Of a DNA stretch of 64,000 nt, positions 19,630-25,726 are shown in pieces (position 1 is the first letter of the stretch; each line of letters opens with the position of its first letter). The notes under the pieces were generated by a model. That model saw nothing but the letters and a program-made list of their open reading frames with translations, did no database searches and was not told the origin of the DNA. Position numbers and translations under genes: made by a program. Origin of the DNA: Hyunsoonleella aquatilis (GTDB lineage Bacteria > Bacteroidota > Bacteroidia > Flavobacteriales > Flavobacteriaceae); assembly GCF_014270105.1 (NCBI RefSeq), contig NZ_JACNMF010000006.1:1-64000 (forward strand), read 5' to 3'.

Positions 19630-19751
19630 ATATTATTGATTTTACAGATATATCTAAATTATTTGCGAATATACTAATTTAAAGTCTGTTTTGTTAAATT
19701 TTATCAATATTAAAATTGATTACCTTTAGAGGCAAATCCATATCAACAGCA

Positions 19752-20801
19752 ATGAAAAACATCCTTTATATTCTAAGTGCTATTATCATTTGTTATTCTT
19801 GTAAAGAAAGCCCAAAGAAAATTGAAGAACACACTCAAAATACAACCAAAAAAGCATCATTTGCCATAGTAATTCATGGAGGCGCAGGCAATATTCAACA
19901 AAAAAACATGTCTGATGCCAAACAAATACAATATCGGCAAATATTAGAGAAAGCCATTCGGGCTGGACACAGTATTTTAAAAAACGGAGGCACTAGTTTG
20001 GATGCAGTGCAACAGGCCATCAATATTTTGGAGGATTCCCCATTATTCAATGCAGGACGGGGTGCTGTTTTGACAAATACTGGGACCTGTGAACATGATG
20101 CCTCAATTATGGATGGTAAAATGTTGAACGCTGGGGCTTCTGCAGGCACCAAAACCGTTAAAAACCCGATTAATTTGGCGCGTGCCGTCATGGAACATTC
20201 ACCCCATGTAATGCTGGCCAGAGATGGAGCGGAAACCTTTGCACAGGAGCAAGGATTGGCTATTGTGGAACCCTCATATTTTTACACTGAAAAAAGCCGA
20301 AAATCCTTAGAGTATATAAAAGCTTTGGAAAAAAACAATGAAGTTTCCTTTTACGATACCGATATAAAAGATTCAAAATTTGGAACCGTAGGTTGCGTCG
20401 CATTGGACAAACATGGGAATTTAGCCTCCGGAACCTCAACCGGAGGCATGACCAACAAACGTTGGGGACGAATCGGGGATTCGCCGATTATCGGAGCAGG
20501 AACATACGCCAACAACAAAACCTGCGCTGTATCCTGTACGGGTTGGGGCGAGTATTTTATCCGTGGGATGGTGGCCCACGATATTTCCGCATTAATGGAA
20601 TACAAAGGCTTATCGCTGGCCGAAGCTTCAAAAGAGGTTATTCAGAATAAATTACCTAAAATTGGTGATGGTGCCGGAGGTGGGGGCATCATTGCTATTG
20701 ATAAAAACGGCATGACGGTAACGGAGTTTAACACCAAAAGCATGTTTCGCGCTAGTATGAACGACAAGGGTGAATTAAATATCGCGATGTTCGGCAAGTG
20801 A
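19752..20801 (+). CDS. Isoaspartyl peptidase/L-asparaginase (Ntn hydrolase), lipoprotein
   Basis: The 349-residue product is a type III asparaginase/isoaspartyl dipeptidase. It is made as a precursor that self-cleaves before Thr212 in FGTVGCVALD. Substrate-binding motifs FAIVIHGGAGNI, LFNAGRGAVLT and TSTGGMTNKRWGRIGDSP are intact. I chose the ATG at 19752 because it gives a lipoprotein signal with cysteine in ICYSCKES; the longer frame from 19716 adds 12 unrelated residues. It should act in the periplasm on beta-aspartyl peptides or asparagine. Apparently monocistronic. Confidence 0.93.
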   Translation: MKNILYILSAIIICYSCKESPKKIEEHTQNTTKKASFAIVIHGGAGNIQQKNMSDAKQIQYRQILEKAIRAGHSILKNGGTSLDAVQQAINILEDSPLFNAGRGAVLTNTGTCEHDASIMDGKMLNAGASAGTKTVKNPINLARAVMEHSPHVMLARDGAETFAQEQGLAIVEPSYFYTEKSRKSLEYIKALEKNNEVSFYDTDIKDSKFGTVGCVALDKHGNLASGTSTGGMTNKRWGRIGDSPIIGAGTYANNKTCAVSCTGWGEYFIRGMVAHDISALMEYKGLSLAEASKEVIQNKLPKIGDGAGGGGIIAIDKNGMTVTEFNTKSMFRASMNDKGELNIAMFGK

Positions 20802-20884
20802 CGTAACAATTTAATATATTTAGTACTTATTAATTAGCCAACCCTCTCTACACTTTTAACTTAGCTAGCTTTTAAGCTTTCCTA

Positions 20885-21607
20885 ATGATAAAATTCTTTA
20901 GGCGCATACGCCAAAAACTCCTTTCTCAAAATAGCTTCAGGAAATATTTACTTTATGCCATAGGCGAAATAATGCTGGTAATTATTGGTATCTTATTAGC
21001 CTTGGCAGTAGCCGATTGGAATGAAAACCGCTTATCCGACCAACGAGAACACGCAAAGCTCCGGCAGGTTAAAAAAGGACTGAAAACCGATTTACATTTT
21101 ATAGACAGTCTTTATACAAGAGATGTCGAAGCCATTGAAAAGGCTTCTTTATTAGATAGCTTGTTAAAATCTCCAAGAACAAAACCAGACGCCTATTATA
21201 ACCCACTTTTTGGAAACATATACGGAATGCGATTTGTAAATATAAATTCTGCATACTATGAAGACCTAAAGTCTTTTGGATACGACAAAATTAAAAATGA
21301 AGCACTGCGACTTCAGCTCATTCAAGTTTTTGAACGAGATTATTTACAAATTCGAGGCTTACTAACCAACGAACAAAGCATTAACCAAGTCAACAGACCT
21401 TATTATCTTAAAAACTTTAATCAATTGGCATTTTGGGATTATGCAGTTCCCAATAATATAGATCAAATCTGGAACGATAGCTATTACCAAAATATTGTTA
21501 ATTACAGATTGATAACATTACGTGCCAACCAAGGCGATATTTATCCCAGGAGCATAAAAAATATACAAATATTATTAGGGATGATTGACGAATATCTGAA
21601 TGAATAA
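20885..21607 (+). CDS. DUF6090 family membrane-anchored protein 1
   Basis: 240 residues. The N-terminus MIKFFRRIRQKLLSQNSF is followed by a single transmembrane helix at about residues 24-42 and a soluble part likely in the periplasm. This copy is the most divergent of five at the N-terminus (AVADWNENRL instead of ALQINNWNE). The soluble part is helical and rich in charged and aromatic residues. It starts the plus-strand tandem array, 12 bp before the next member. Function unknown. Confidence 0.85.
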   Translation: MIKFFRRIRQKLLSQNSFRKYLLYAIGEIMLVIIGILLALAVADWNENRLSDQREHAKLRQVKKGLKTDLHFIDSLYTRDVEAIEKASLLDSLLKSPRTKPDAYYNPLFGNIYGMRFVNINSAYYEDLKSFGYDKIKNEALRLQLIQVFERDYLQIRGLLTNEQSINQVNRPYYLKNFNQLAFWDYAVPNNIDQIWNDSYYQNIVNYRLITLRANQGDIYPRSIKNIQILLGMIDEYLNE

Positions 21608-21619
21608 AGGTGATACACT

Positions 21620-22930
21620 ATGATAAAATTCTTTAGAAAAATACGCCAAAAACTCCTCTCTGAAAATAAGTTTTCAAAGTATCTGTTATACGCTATTGGC
21701 GAAATTGTGCTCGTGGTGATTGGGATTTTGATTGCATTGCAGGTAAACAACTGGAACCAAAATCGCCTTCAAGAAAAAAAACTGAGTCAGACCCTAAAGG
21801 TATTAGCCTCTAATATTGAATCTGACATCAATGCCTTAAAATTATTGAAATTTGCACGAGAAAGAGCAGGCTTACAAGCAGATTCAATCGCGAAATTTTA
21901 TTTCGCAGAAAAAGACGGTGTTGCAGTTTATAATTTAAAAAAAATCTCGCAAGAGCAAGCTAACTTTTTTTCCCTGTCCTTTAAGGAAGTCATAGCTACC
22001 ATTCAACATGAGCCCGACTTAAGTGTCATTGAATCTTTAAAAAGATCGGAAAATTTCAGCAACCTACAAGCAACCGATATTATAAAAATGATTAACGCTT
22101 ATTACGCGGTAAATAAAAACCTTCAGCGTACTGAATTAAAACATAACGACAACATAAATGAACTTTATCAGGAATGGGATAAAACTTTTAGGAACAATTA
22201 TGCGAACCTTTTTTCCAATCCATGGTCATTTAGCAATGCTTCTTTTGAAGAATTGTACCCCAATTATGAAAGGATTGCAAATAATCAATTATCAAAAAAC
22301 CTCTACTACCCCAACGCTAAATTTGAAGCGGATAAAATTATTAAGTTATATGACGCTCTTATACAACTTGGAGATGGTATTGTAAATATGGTATCTAATA
22401 ATCAAAGGTATTTTGATGCTGTCACTAAAGCAAATTTTGAAAACAGAAATGCAATACCTACTAATCCTGCTGTTTTATCCATGTTAGTAGACGGTAAATT
22501 AATCTCAGGTTTTAACTATGATTATGCTTCGTCAGCTCCTATTACAAATAATGTAACTAGCGAAAATGGTTATGCCTCATTTCATTATCCCGATAATACA
22601 TTAGATTGGTTTGCAACCCTAATCAATATTGATGCATTAAACGGAAGAATTTCCTATTTAGATTTTTCTAAATACAGCACACTAACATTAGAGATGAAAG
22701 GCGAAACTGGAGGCGAGACTTTTGAGGTTACAATGAAAGATATAATTGACCCACCAGATGGTTCTGAGAAACGAGCTTTAGTAACCTTAACGGATCAGTG
22801 GCAAACCTATACATTCAATCTAAATGAATTTGAAACAGCAGATAAAAGTATGATTCAGGTGCCCTTGGCAATAGTCTTTCAAGGCCCTAAAGGCATGACT
22901 ATTCATGTAAAAACTATAAAGTTTCGTTAG
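21620..22930 (+). CDS. DUF6090 family protein 2 with C-terminal beta-rich domain
   Basis: 436 residues, about 190 longer than its sisters. The first 50 residues are the family anchor (MIKFFRKIRQKLLSENKF, then a TM helix). Residues 50-290 form the helical DUF6090 body. From about residue 297 (FNYDYASSAPIT) a beta-rich domain follows with DFSKYSTLTLEMKGE, TLTDQWQTYTFNLNEF and MTIHVKTIKF, resembling galactose-binding-like carbohydrate-binding modules. The fusion suggests glycan or cell-wall contact; this is inference. The gene ends 4 bp before the next member. Confidence 0.85.
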   Translation: MIKFFRKIRQKLLSENKFSKYLLYAIGEIVLVVIGILIALQVNNWNQNRLQEKKLSQTLKVLASNIESDINALKLLKFARERAGLQADSIAKFYFAEKDGVAVYNLKKISQEQANFFSLSFKEVIATIQHEPDLSVIESLKRSENFSNLQATDIIKMINAYYAVNKNLQRTELKHNDNINELYQEWDKTFRNNYANLFSNPWSFSNASFEELYPNYERIANNQLSKNLYYPNAKFEADKIIKLYDALIQLGDGIVNMVSNNQRYFDAVTKANFENRNAIPTNPAVLSMLVDGKLISGFNYDYASSAPITNNVTSENGYASFHYPDNTLDWFATLINIDALNGRISYLDFSKYSTLTLEMKGETGGETFEVTMKDIIDPPDGSEKRALVTLTDQWQTYTFNLNEFETADKSMIQVPLAIVFQGPKGMTIHVKTIKFR

Positions 22931-22934
22931 GCTT

Positions 22935-23696
22935 ATGATTAAATTCTTTAGAAAAATTCGTCAAAAACTCCTTTCTGAAAACAAGTTTTCAAAGTATCTG
23001 CTTTATGCCATTGGCGAGATTGTGCTAGTGGTGATTGGGATTTTGATTGCGCTCCAGATTAATAATTTAAACGAAGAAAGAAAACTTCTTAACAAAAGAG
23101 ACAGCTTAATATCCTCACTTATTGAAGATTTTGAATTCAATACGACAGAAATTAAAACCATTTTGTTGCTATCCGAAAAACAGTTAAACACAATGGATAA
23201 TTACTTTAACTTAATCTCTCAAACGAATCAAACGGTTTCTGTAGATTCATTAAGAACCCTAGCTCGTTCTTTTTTTACTTACGAAACATTTATTCCTAAT
23301 ATGACTGCTTATAATGAGGCGGAATCTAGTGGTAATTTAAGCTTACTTAATTATAAATTATTACTACAAGAATTCACAAAACTACAACAAGAAATTGAGT
23401 CTCTACAATTGTATAACAAAGCTGGAATTTACACATTCCATGACGGTTCAAGTTGGGAATTTCGAAAAACCGTAGAACCCGGAACCATATACAACAGTAT
23501 CTACTCTGGTTCAACCGCAAAGGATATTCCGTATTCAGACTATCAACGCATTATGCAATCACCCCTGGCAAAGAATGCCTTACAGAACCAAAACATGATG
23601 ATAGGAAATTGTTATCATATTTTAAAAAGAATGCTTAATCACTCCGAAAATATTCTTGAAATTCTTAACAAAATGAAATCACCCAAAAAAGTTTAA
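22935..23696 (+). CDS. DUF6090 family membrane-anchored protein 3
   Basis: 253 residues. The N-terminal 45 residues, including the TM segment EIVLVVIGILIALQINN, are nearly identical to copies 2, 4 and 5, also at DNA level. The rest has diverged: ESSGNLSLLNYKLLLQEF marks the conserved core around residue 130, where sisters have similar short motifs about an age-like internal repeat of helices. It is followed by copy 4 after 9 bp. Function unknown. Confidence 0.85.
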   Translation: MIKFFRKIRQKLLSENKFSKYLLYAIGEIVLVVIGILIALQINNLNEERKLLNKRDSLISSLIEDFEFNTTEIKTILLLSEKQLNTMDNYFNLISQTNQTVSVDSLRTLARSFFTYETFIPNMTAYNEAESSGNLSLLNYKLLLQEFTKLQQEIESLQLYNKAGIYTFHDGSSWEFRKTVEPGTIYNSIYSGSTAKDIPYSDYQRIMQSPLAKNALQNQNMMIGNCYHILKRMLNHSENILEILNKMKSPKKV

Positions 23697-23705
23697 TAAC
23701 AATAA

Positions 23706-24473
23706 ATGATTAAATTTTTCCGTAAAATCCGCCAAAAACTACTCTCCGAAAACAAGTTTTCAAAGTACCTGCTTTATGCCATTGGCGAAATTGTGCTGGT
23801 GGTGATAGGAATATTAATCGCACTTCAAATAAATAATACGAATGAGCGTAGGTTAGAGCGGTTTGAAGAGATAAAATTATTGGAGAACTTAAAGGTAGAT
23901 TTTCAACAAACTATTCGTGAGTTCCAGGGAATGAATATAAATAGAGATAGTATCCTATTTGCAAATTATTCACTAACGGATTTAAAGACCAAAGGCGACT
24001 TTAATAATGAGCGCAAAATAGATACGCTGTTGGCTACAACATTTATATGTCCAACATTTAATGGGAAGTCTAGTTCGCTAATGATGCTTTTTAACTCCGG
24101 AAAAATTAATATTTTAAAAAACGAAGCCTTAAAAACCCTACTTTTTTCTTGGCCCTCGGAAATTGAGGATATGACTGAAGGTGAAATTGATTCCAAGTTA
24201 ATAACATATAATTTTTACATCCCAATCATAAGGCAATATGTTAACATTTCGTCTATTACTAGAACTACAACTATCTTACCTATAAAAATACGCAACAGAG
24301 ATTCGGCTATTTTAAATGATTATATGGGACTTTTGAATAATAGAGAATTTGAAAATCTTTTATATCAGCTTGAATTATTAACTCTTGACAATATACAGGA
24401 AACCAAAAGTTTGATTAGGATAGCAGAATCGATTATTGAAATAATTAATTCAGAACTAGAACAATATAAATGA
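23706..24473 (+). CDS. DUF6090 family membrane-anchored protein 4
   Basis: 255 residues with the shared anchor (MIKFFRKIRQKLLSENKF and TM helix) and a divergent helical periplasmic body. A motif FNSGKINILKNEALKTLLF near residue 130 corresponds to AESSGNLSLL in copy 3 and KSKGVDIIQNKELRNAI in copy 5, which seems to be the conserved core of the family. Its stop overlaps the next start by 4 bp (ATGA), so translation is probably coupled. Confidence 0.85.
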   Translation: MIKFFRKIRQKLLSENKFSKYLLYAIGEIVLVVIGILIALQINNTNERRLERFEEIKLLENLKVDFQQTIREFQGMNINRDSILFANYSLTDLKTKGDFNNERKIDTLLATTFICPTFNGKSSSLMMLFNSGKINILKNEALKTLLFSWPSEIEDMTEGEIDSKLITYNFYIPIIRQYVNISSITRTTTILPIKIRNRDSAILNDYMGLLNNREFENLLYQLELLTLDNIQETKSLIRIAESIIEIINSELEQYK

Positions 24474-25195
24474 TTAAATTCTTCCGTAATATCCGCCAAA
24501 AACTCCTTTCTGAAAATAAGTTTTCAAAATATCTGCTTTATGCCATTGGTGAAATTGTGCTCGTGGTGATTGGGATTTTGATTGCGCTTCAGATTAATAA
24601 TTGGAATGAATATCAAAAAGAACGTAAAGTTGAAATTGAAATATTAAAAGAAATTCAAAATAACCTCAATCAAGATATCATTAATTTAAATACAAAAATT
24701 GATGAAACCGACAATTCATCAATGGCCAATAAAAAAGTTTTGGAACATCTAAAAAACAAAACACCTCTATCGGATTCTTTAAAAAAGTCTTATGCGCTTT
24801 TAGGTAGCTTCGGCACATTTAGACCAATTACAGCTGGGTATGAAAATTTAAAATCAAAAGGTGTGGATATTATCCAAAATAAGGAATTACGCAATGCCAT
24901 CACGAAACTATACGATTTCCAATATTTTTATTTCGTAGAGGATTTAATTTATGCCATTGATGACTTTCGAAGTGATAAATCATCTTATGTTAACGACAAA
25001 GTCTTTTGGGAAGAAAATGTTAGAAATTATAGTGCTCAGCCTATCAATTTGGAAGCACTTTACAACGATGACACCTTCAAAGGCTATTTGTCGTCATCAA
25101 TCGTTCTACAAAACTGGATGAAAATAAGGCGGAGTGCTGGAATTCAACAAATTAATGAGGTGATTCAACTTATTGAAAATGAGTTAAAAAAATGA
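24470..25195 (+). CDS. DUF6090 family membrane-anchored protein 5
   Basis: 241 residues. The N-terminus is MIKFFRNIRQKLLSENKF, followed by the TM helix and INNWNEYQKERK. The periplasmic body has the core motif YENLKSKGVDIIQNKELR near residue 125. Start and stop overlap neighbours: the start overlaps copy 4 (ATGA) and its TGA overlaps the ATG of a sixth truncated copy at 25192. It is the last intact member of the array. Confidence 0.85.
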   Translation: MIKFFRNIRQKLLSENKFSKYLLYAIGEIVLVVIGILIALQINNWNEYQKERKVEIEILKEIQNNLNQDIINLNTKIDETDNSSMANKKVLEHLKNKTPLSDSLKKSYALLGSFGTFRPITAGYENLKSKGVDIIQNKELRNAITKLYDFQYFYFVEDLIYAIDDFRSDKSSYVNDKVFWEENVRNYSAQPINLEALYNDDTFKGYLSSSIVLQNWMKIRRSAGIQQINEVIQLIENELKK

Positions 25196-25248
25196 TCAAA
25201 TTCTTTAGAAAATCCGCAAAAATCAGGTATTTGCATTTCTCTTCTTAA
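25192..25248 (+). pseudogene. Relic of a sixth DUF6090 gene
   Basis: Starts ATG overlapping the previous TGA, as between copies 4 and 5. The first seven codons give MIKFFRK, identical to the family. A 2-bp loss after AGAAAA then shifts the frame (SAKIRYLHFSS, stop), while the DNA still resembles the family for about 30 bp. It then runs into the 3' end of the convergent CAP gene at 25223, suggesting that a rearrangement truncated the array. Confidence 0.75.
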
Positions 25249-25726
25249 AGAAAAGCTGCGTGTAGTAATAAGTTCCATTGCCATTCTTTACAACCGCAAT
25301 ACCAATATGCGTAAAATCACCTTCAATATTTCTGCGGTGTCCTGAACTGTTTAACCAAGCTTCCATTACGGCTTCTGCATTTCGTTGCCCATAGGCCACA
25401 TTTTCACCAGTTCTTGAAGCGTTTGCTTCCGCGAATAATCTATCCGAACGTTTATCAAAATCATCATGACTAATATCGCGTTGTTCAATCATGTATAAAG
25501 TATGTTCGTAAGCTAAATCATTGGCCAAGGTGTTAAATTCCAAAGGAACTTTTCCAATACTGGCTCTGTGTGCATTTACAATCTGTAAAATTTCATCCAC
25601 CATTGAAAGTGTTTCTGATAATTCAACATCTTCTTCTGAAACATCGTCTTTAGAACAAGATGTAAAAGCTACCATCAAAATAAAACAGCATAGAATTGCG
25701 TAGGTTTTTAAATGAAGTGTTTTCAT
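25223..25726 (-). CDS. CAP (SCP/PR-1) domain lipoprotein
   Basis: 167 residues. A lipoprotein signal ends at cysteine in MVAFTSCSKDD, and the acidic residues after it suggest surface export as in Bacteroidota. The CAP domain covers residues 40-165, with conserved features NAHRASIGKVPLEFN, SHDDFDKRSDR, RTGENVAYGQ and AWLNSSGHRRNIEG. Bacterial CAP proteins are extracellular and of uncertain activity. It is convergent with the DUF6090 array and its end overlaps the sixth relic. Confidence 0.92.
   Translation of the reverse strand: MKTLHLKTYAILCCFILMVAFTSCSKDDVSEEDVELSETLSMVDEILQIVNAHRASIGKVPLEFNTLANDLAYEHTLYMIEQRDISHDDFDKRSDRLFAEANASRTGENVAYGQRNAEAVMEAWLNSSGHRRNIEGDFTHIGIAVVKNGNGTYYYTQLFFKKRNANT

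Follow-up and report, generated by a model that had tools for sequence, protein, structure and literature searches.

In polymorphic toxins such as CdiA-CT and Rhs, a constant N-terminal part is followed by exchangeable C-terminal cassettes, joined to it at a fixed position. A comparable layout is found in the DUF6090 family (PF19578), of which five tandem genes lie on the plus strand, between positions 20885 and 25195, of the 64,000-nucleotide stretch of Hyunsoonleella aquatilis DNA analysed here (contig C18 of genome G000; the whole stretch is called the window below). Members of the family likewise have a constant N-terminal and a variable C-terminal part and show exchange at a fixed joint. 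Unlike the toxins, they carry no recognised toxin domain, and their rows are made up of complete genes rather than of a single gene plus orphan tips. Our main finding is that their first part, the anchor (codons 1 to about 42), and the remainder, the body (from about codon 41 to the stop codon), have separate histories.

Homogeneous polyimmunity loci, in the passages of PMC3482391 that describe them, resemble the DUF6090 rows in being tandem arrays of distant paralogues in one orientation, with small gaps and no toxin genes in between; number and content vary among relatives, and recombinases are found nearby in some cases. Compared with those passages, DUF6090 members differ in that they are membrane-anchored, share one anchor and occupy many loci per genome in some species, and in that none stands beside a toxin among 20 neighbours scanned. 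As in the integron cassettes treated in parts of PMC9024848 and PMC8618304, some DUF6090 genes consist of a single open reading frame (ORF) with an attC-like site on the same strand, and the site ends match between neighbours. Unlike the cassettes in those parts, most DUF6090 genes, including the whole window row, have no such site, and the recombinase appears to lack an insert and scores below the TIGR02249 cut-off. The word DUF6090 occurred in no paper of the literature searched, whose coverage leaves out most subscription papers.

We consider the chances evenly balanced that the DUF6090 rows hold a modular repertoire of anchored helical bundles under purifying selection, with recombination at the anchors and a supply that comes partly from integron cassettes.

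Anchors and bodies of the window row

The row consists of the following elements:

20885..21607, plus strand: DUF6090 gene 1, 240 aa, with the most divergent anchor (ORF call, Pfam match, anchor comparison)
21620..22930, plus strand: DUF6090 gene 2, 436 aa (ORF call, Pfam match)
22935..23696, plus strand: DUF6090 gene 3, 253 aa (ORF call, Pfam match)
23706..24473, plus strand: DUF6090 gene 4, 255 aa
24470..25195, plus strand: DUF6090 gene 5, 241 aa, its start overlapping the stop of gene 4 by 4 bp
25192..25222, plus strand: stub of a sixth anchor, an anchor-start match that is broken at about 31 bp and reaches the neighbouring CAP gene

A preliminary description of this DNA had reported five consecutive DUF6090 genes, spaced by 4–12 bp or overlapping by 4 bp, and both points hold: the gaps are 12, 4, 9 and −4 bp, and all five proteins pass the Pfam gathering cut-off of 23.5 bits (28.9, 23.9, 39, 35.4 and 45.1 bits for genes 1 to 5). 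They share with the family a transmembrane (TM) helix and a helical body; the Pfam match begins at residue 28 and omits a basic N-terminal helix. A degenerate anchor-start pattern, with at most two mismatches allowed, gave six matches in the window versus 0.30 expected from shuffled sequence, and the sixth, at 25192, is what is left of the start of a further, decayed copy.

The description had also called the anchors almost identical even at the DNA level. This was overstated and does not hold for all five genes: over 46 codons (138 bases), the anchors of genes 2–5 share 96–98% of their amino acids and 79–89% of their DNA, and that of gene 1 shares 74–78% and 66–71%, respectively, with the others. 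The bodies differ as widely as had been described. The best of the ten pairs, genes 1 and 5, reaches 28.9 bits (25% identity over 131 residues), and the remaining nine stay at or below 20.8 bits each. Among 353 DUF6090 genes, the body of gene 3 has no relative above 40 bits. That of gene 4 is 63% identical to G035_L053_9416 from another genus, and the anchor DNA of this pair is only 64% identical. Gene 2 ends in a CBM30/CIA30-like region, which lies under the Pfam cut-offs and is also seen in its relative L056:8394-9674.

Anchors follow genome and locus, bodies do not

We collected 412 anchor genes (107 + 305), of which 376 were kept after removal of 18 from duplicate loci, 17 that were short or motif-less and one identical copy. 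Another 23 with altered anchor length were dropped before the anchor/body statistics, leaving 353 with an ungapped anchor; in the comparison of anchor DNA and codons, 8 of the 107 genes were left out. The pairs in the cross-genome and same-locus statistics are not independent, and we claim no p-value for the anchor/body pair figures.

In 442 cross-genome pairs with a related C-terminal part, the N-terminal part of the body was also related in 96.8% (10.1% background), and agreement over anchor codons 7–24 was 0.527, the same as in other pairs (0.527), versus 0.693 in pairs from the same locus. The Spearman correlation between anchor and body similarity was 0.019. For 132 of 275 genes in groups of four or more, the closest anchor DNA came from their own genome; for bodies this was so in 14 of 268, with chance at 3.4%. 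Five anchors of genome G035 that carry an identical 30-bp insert stand ahead of bodies sharing no more than 25.8 bits. In-frame short repeats within the anchor, many of them palindromic (21, 27, 30 or 63 bp, around codons 15–22), were seen in 20 of the 376 genes, for example L053:4510, L055:11286, L075:6920 and L091:7172.

The amino acid identity of same-locus pairs shows its greatest excess at codons 1–24, and the averaged excess in codon identity falls from about 0.08 over codons 1–42 to about 0.03 over codons 43–75, which is lower, not zero. Overall, same-locus anchor pairs show a codon identity of 0.523 (0.441 expected), anchors at other loci of one genome 0.462 (0.443 expected) and anchors from other genera 0.448 (0.435 expected), where synonymous sites are near saturation. 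The preliminary description had proposed either gene conversion of the anchor or strong selection on it. Both act: the TM core is under purifying selection in all genomes, and local homogenisation or body swapping comes in addition.

Joints and recent transfer between genera

The sharpest recent transfer is seen in the pair L086_25 and G035_L058_5801. Identity is 57–70% over nucleotides 0–119, 97% over 120–179 and 77–100% from there to the stop codon, after which it drops. The joint lies near codon 41, within the stretch coding for the end of the TM helix; body synonymous divergence (dS) is 0.46, and anchor dS is saturated. L087_14646 and L079_3639 change identity at the same place, and milder steps are found in L144/L141, L130/L054 and L087_16755/L081.

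In all 11 cross-genome body pairs tested, anchor dS exceeded body dS; together with the drop in codon excess past codon 42, this speaks against a uniform dS along the genes, the outcome that would have argued against conversion plus diversification. The five closest pairs have a body dS of 0.21–0.48 and an anchor dS from 0.50 to saturated, and neighbouring control genes within a genus range from 1.2 to saturated. Measured against these controls, the low body dS, found also in the intergeneric pairs Cellulophaga/Tamlana, Algibacter/Halomarinibacterium and Winogradskyella/Polaribacter, indicates recent transfer. The ratio of nonsynonymous to synonymous divergence (dN/dS) of the bodies, 0.06–0.28 in the 11 pairs, indicates purifying selection and lies above most controls (0.03–0.16). 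The suggestion that the bodies diversify under positive selection is thus unsupported.

Turnover at one slot, a retained body at another

The window row occupies a slot with these surroundings:

19716..20801, plus strand: asparaginase (Asparaginase_2), left flank of the slot (Pfam match, slot order)
20802..20884, plus strand: leader before gene 1 (compared by eye with the G003 leader at this slot)
25223..25726, minus strand: CAP-domain protein, right flank of the slot, convergent to the array (Pfam match)
from 25974: gene of 1856 aa beyond the CAP gene (slot order), which we take to be A2M

We compared 23 loci: 20 of the 50 matches to the ALDH neighbour, fetched regardless of arrays, plus the window and two loci with DUF6090 rows known beforehand, L052 and L131. 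Three of the 23 carry rows, with 5, 12 and 11 copies; in L131, only the ALDH and A2M flanks could be recognised. In eight loci the flanks lie near each other without DUF6090 genes, and the other 12, which also lack them, are rearranged or miss one flank. At some of the empty slots, the CAP gene lies 44 or 64 bp from the asparaginase gene or overlaps it by 4 bp; at others, a different gene separates the two or takes the place of CAP.

The anchors of window genes 2–5 share 85–91% of their DNA with anchors of the G003 row in the same slot, and the bodies in those pairs score 32 bits or less; no body match between the two rows exceeds 45 bits. About 45 bp of the gene 1 leader resemble, by eye, that of the G003 array. 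Given this similarity, the two arrays probably go back to one old row, and the leader is a possible shared promoter. Promoter-like matches in the array region were not above chance (24 versus 21.6 in shuffles). Between G003 and W. eximia, three related bodies are collinear (116, 239 and 271 bits), and the anchors ahead of them have 67–75% DNA identity.

A second slot lies near operon genes that we assume, from their sequence, to be of kynurenine type. Seven genomes carry 1–7 DUF6090 genes there (L100, L110, L117, L118, L125, L146, L147). Four of the seven retain one orthologous body, 51–78% identical, and the rest differ; two members of this orthologous set, in L117 and L118, were removed from the statistics by the motif filter. 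The retained body stands behind anchors that share 64–86% of their DNA, which favours anchor conversion. The view that no copy has fixed one-to-one orthologues holds for the most part, as at the asparaginase slot with its 5, 12, 11 or 0 copies, and the kynurenine-type slot is the one exception.

All 218 adjacent DUF6090 pairs lie on the same strand, none on opposite strands. Among 174 close junctions, 87 overlap, by 8 bp (40), 4 bp (38) or 1 bp (9); the anchor start ATGATTAA can provide the preceding gene with its TGA or TAA stop. An anchor stub (at least 13 of 18 positions) follows 29 of the 203 row-ending genes with enough sequence, versus 3 in shuffled sequence, and in several cases repeat-like sequence could be seen by eye between stub and next gene. 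A similar spacer, an anchor start and then a repeat-like stretch, follows DUF6090 genes in four genomes by eye (L087 after 18585, L068 before 6056, L054 before 2615, L081 after 9117). Several neighbours of DUF6090 genes are hydrolases or amidases (asparaginase, penicillin amidase, amidohydrolase, serine hydrolase), e.g. at L120:909-3311 and L105:6102-7403, an observation made with no control. A DUF6090-type anchor start is also found ahead of a sulfatase (PF00884, 203 bits) at L084:3819-5597, whose sequence shows, by eye, a lipoprotein-like cysteine; L067:4591-4965, again judged by eye, resembles it and has an FGE-like start.

In samples of 299 family genomes and 296 phylum genomes, PF19578 was matched in 189 and 44, respectively. 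Up to 93 first-look candidates were counted in a genome, 10 of which were scored, and single fetched loci hold up to 12 (G003), 20 (L137) and 19 (L093) anchor genes.

Association with an integron-like system

A link to integrons was not foreseen in the preliminary description. The spacers after some DUF6090 genes resemble attC sites. Thirty of them align with 98.0% paired cells, changes on both sides in 9 of 17 pairs and a covariation of 0.293 versus 0.074 in shuffled alignments, and the conserved attC fold (two paired boxes with an unpaired spacer) is present. In the two sites folded, the bottom strand folds better (−27.2 vs −23.2 and −17.8 vs −13.0 kcal/mol), and for the second its minimum-energy fold differs from the attC fold. 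A strict attC finder gave almost no matches and a second finder stayed near the control in several loci; the covariance model R1 decided. At E≤0.001, it returned 136 matches in 51 loci plus 130 in 78 loci. Reverse-strand duplicates account for some of these, and 249 of the 266 were carried on after exclusion of 16 reverse-strand matches and one contig-end piece. At the same threshold there was no match in the 64-kb window, in L052 or in L131. Between neighbouring sites, 4.40 of the five bases outside the core match (105 of 135 perfect), versus 1.86 after re-pairing, as would be expected of excisable cassettes.

A same-strand site within 150 bp after the stop codon was found for 44 of 386 DUF6090 genes, 39 of them solitary. 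The 342 without one comprise 231 tight-row and 111 solitary genes; the labels tight row and cassette rest on limits of 60 and 150 bp. The one gene of L069 is left out of this count and was treated as attC-less in the anchor statistics. Tight-row anchors are more alike within a locus than across genomes (0.704 vs 0.510), and cassette anchors are not (0.672 in 42 pairs vs 0.683). Among the 127 cross-genome body pairs above 150 bits, both partners are attC-flanked in 5 of the 10 with a codon identity of at least 0.65, versus 3 of the other 117 (Fisher 5e-5, pairs not independent).

Genome G000 has ten anchor genes, five in the window row and five elsewhere (three on the small contig C20, two of these identical, C18:165162 and C16:229954); an eleventh listed match has an E-value of 0.9. 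It holds both forms, the attC-free window row and attC-flanked copies on C20, C16 and C18. On one attC-rich G000 contig, L020:8333-9100 and L020:10150-10917 are sequence-identical DUF6090 genes, each flanked by attC-like sites. Tight rows may collect bodies from a cassette-borne pool.

Beyond DUF6090, 92 of 100 genomes of the family and 16 of 80 of the phylum contain attC-like sites of about 140 bp at E≤1e-6, G000 being in both samples. Of 12 IntI-like loci chosen, 10 have a site no more than about 1.5 kb away from the match, two of these sites being weak or truncated by a contig end; the remaining two loci are at contig ends. Three recombinases with likeness to IntI, XerA and Xer scored 188, 192 and 203 bits versus the TIGR02249 cut-off of 265, which was exceeded in none of 60 relatives and none of 10 further genomes. 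The one protein aligned in detail, L195:6361-7428, matches IntI4 (2a3v) at residues 6–214 and 245–319 only and skips 215–244, presumably the IntI-specific insert. Judged from these alignments, the recombinase would be IntI-like without that insert. Integron-like arrangements are seen in L195:694-7428, L192:2007-6955, L200:429-19444 and the whole of L020. Which side of the recombinase the sites are on, upstream or downstream, varies between genomes.

The phylum or group is among those that PMC8618304 and PMC2426708 list in an integron context. A Tenacibaculum genome paper (PMC10013915) detected no integron with IntegronFinder, and the main text of PMC8352920 contains no word starting with Bacteroid or Flavobacter. 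No title or abstract describing a flavobacterial system of this kind was found, in a search that most subscription papers fall outside.

Predicted structure and constraint on the TM helix

The models of gene 5 (62 sequences, predicted local distance difference test (pLDDT) score 94.8) and gene 4 (7 sequences, pLDDT 86.2) both contain a helix at residues 2–14, one helix at 18–96 that continues from the TM stretch, short helices around 102–131, a long helix around 138–177 and then a last long helix. The two bodies, which have no BLAST similarity (13.5 bits), are thus predicted to share one architecture. The basic N-terminus suggests a topology with the first helix in the cytoplasm and the body in the periplasm. 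Conservation of the TM stretch follows a helical periodicity with a peak at about 95 degrees, and E28, G35 and A39 are invariant in A2; the conserved face may be buried or mediate oligomerisation. The gene 5 model found no match at E≤0.001 among PDB or viral models, and the matches listed look like generic long helices. A likeness of the TM stretch to pilins was rejected (only ComGC matched, at 13.4 bits versus a cut-off of 75).

How the rows may arise and what they may do

Under the modular reading, each product would have a short basic amphipathic helix in the cytoplasm, a single TM helix under strong constraint and, in the periplasm, a long bundle of helices. The anchor would be kept constant by purifying selection on its core and, in tight rows, homogenised by recombination between copies. 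Anchor and body could be brought together by two routes that would leave similar traces: resident bodies may have their anchors converted by neighbours, or recombination within the conserved TM-coding stretch may attach foreign bodies to anchors already present. The flavobacterial integron-like system would carry part of the body pool between genera. In the inner membrane, the anchor might dock or oligomerise the members, and each body might recognise or neutralise a different incoming agent in the periplasm. It is a serious but less than even possibility that the family is a constant/variable repertoire in this full sense, in which the anchor is docking part and recombination handle at once, bodies circulate between genera partly via the integron-like system whose recombinase has no IntI insert, and tight rows are expression sites that collect them.

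Several results weigh against the modular reading. The 127 strongest cross-genome body pairs agree slightly more in their variable anchor codons (0.563) than the general 0.527. Same-genus anchors from different genomes have a codon identity of 0.511 (0.462 expected), so most of the anchor constancy reflects amino acid selection and shared ancestry. Where the bodies of same-locus pairs can be aligned (22 pairs), body and anchor have similar codon identities (0.555 and 0.564; 0.475 and 0.537 without one identical pair), which again assigns most of the constancy to amino acid selection and leaves recombination to give it a local flavour. Cassette anchors show local clustering too, 10 of 34 having their nearest anchor in the same genome (6.6% expected). 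The body kept at the kynurenine-type slot is a one-to-one orthologue across genera and speaks against pure body swapping. On the functional side, a scan of 20 neighbours, taken from 69 loci that had a candidate, revealed no toxin (two had no Pfam match), and PADLOC had no match for the five window proteins, which rejects a known defence family. A phage or plasmid origin was likewise rejected: neither the 50,697 phage nor the 72,556 plasmid records contained a match to gene 5. A search of viral contigs with A1 yielded 24 stretches that fit a pattern and no relative.

As in polyimmunity loci, the rows combine one orientation, close spacing, absence of toxins and variable content. On these analogies we rank a neutralising, immunity-like repertoire first among the possible functions, as a tentative and still doubtful assignment, and sensors second. 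In the latter case, which we regard as unlikely, paralogous sensors or receptors would each bind a ligand with the body and signal through the shared anchor to a common inner-membrane partner. Sensor domains often consist of helical bundles, and the predicted elongated bundle on a single TM helix, the nearly invariant and periodic TM residues and the CBM30/CIA30-like end of gene 2 would all fit. However, the roughly 20 cytoplasmic residues contain no known domain, and a common neighbour gene was not found (439 of 520 neighbour clusters are singletons, a count that includes unchecked ORFs of at least 70 aa). A genome with up to 93 first-look candidates would also be an extreme case for sensors that lack partners.

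It is improbable that the pattern arose by plain tandem duplication, in which the anchor is under strong purifying selection, the body diverges under relaxed constraint and recombination plays no notable part. The conserved anchor core with its near-saturated synonymous sites, the low dN/dS of the bodies, the similar codon identities in the few alignable same-locus pairs and the orthologous body retained at one slot in four genomes are what such a history would leave. But the clustering of anchors, not bodies, by genome and locus, the sharp joint at about nucleotide 120 in the clearest pair and the lower dS of the body in all 11 cross-genome pairs tested speak against it, and related bodies that carry unrelated variable anchor parts already contradict it.

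We think it more improbable still that integron copies form a silent archive feeding the tight rows of the same genome, as in antigenic variation. G000 does hold both forms, and of 28 tight rows the window row comes nearest to the cassette anchor consensus (0.89). However, the cassette and tight-row consensus sequences are identical over codons 7–24, so this may only be nearness to the family consensus; bodies are rarely shared within a genome, and no switch or inversion was seen, none having been searched for. Least credible are selfish or near-neutral passengers spreading through easily recombining anchors, a reading that would suit the attC link, the stubs and decayed copies and the patchy occurrence of anchors, which 5 of 12 members of the genus have. 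The purifying selection on bodies and the overlapping starts and stops retained at half of the close junctions speak against it.

Implications

Sites resembling attC are exposed in nearly all of the Flavobacteriaceae genomes sampled, while a survey passage names a single complete integron within Bacteroidetes proper, that of Salinibacter ruber (PMC9024848). The DUF6090 family, of which some marine flavobacteria have dozens of copies per genome, proves to be modular: its bodies are shared between genera, and the clearest case fixes the position of the joint to a few codons. The combination of constant and variable parts is known from conflict systems, i.e. polymorphic toxins and immunity rows, and points to a changing target.

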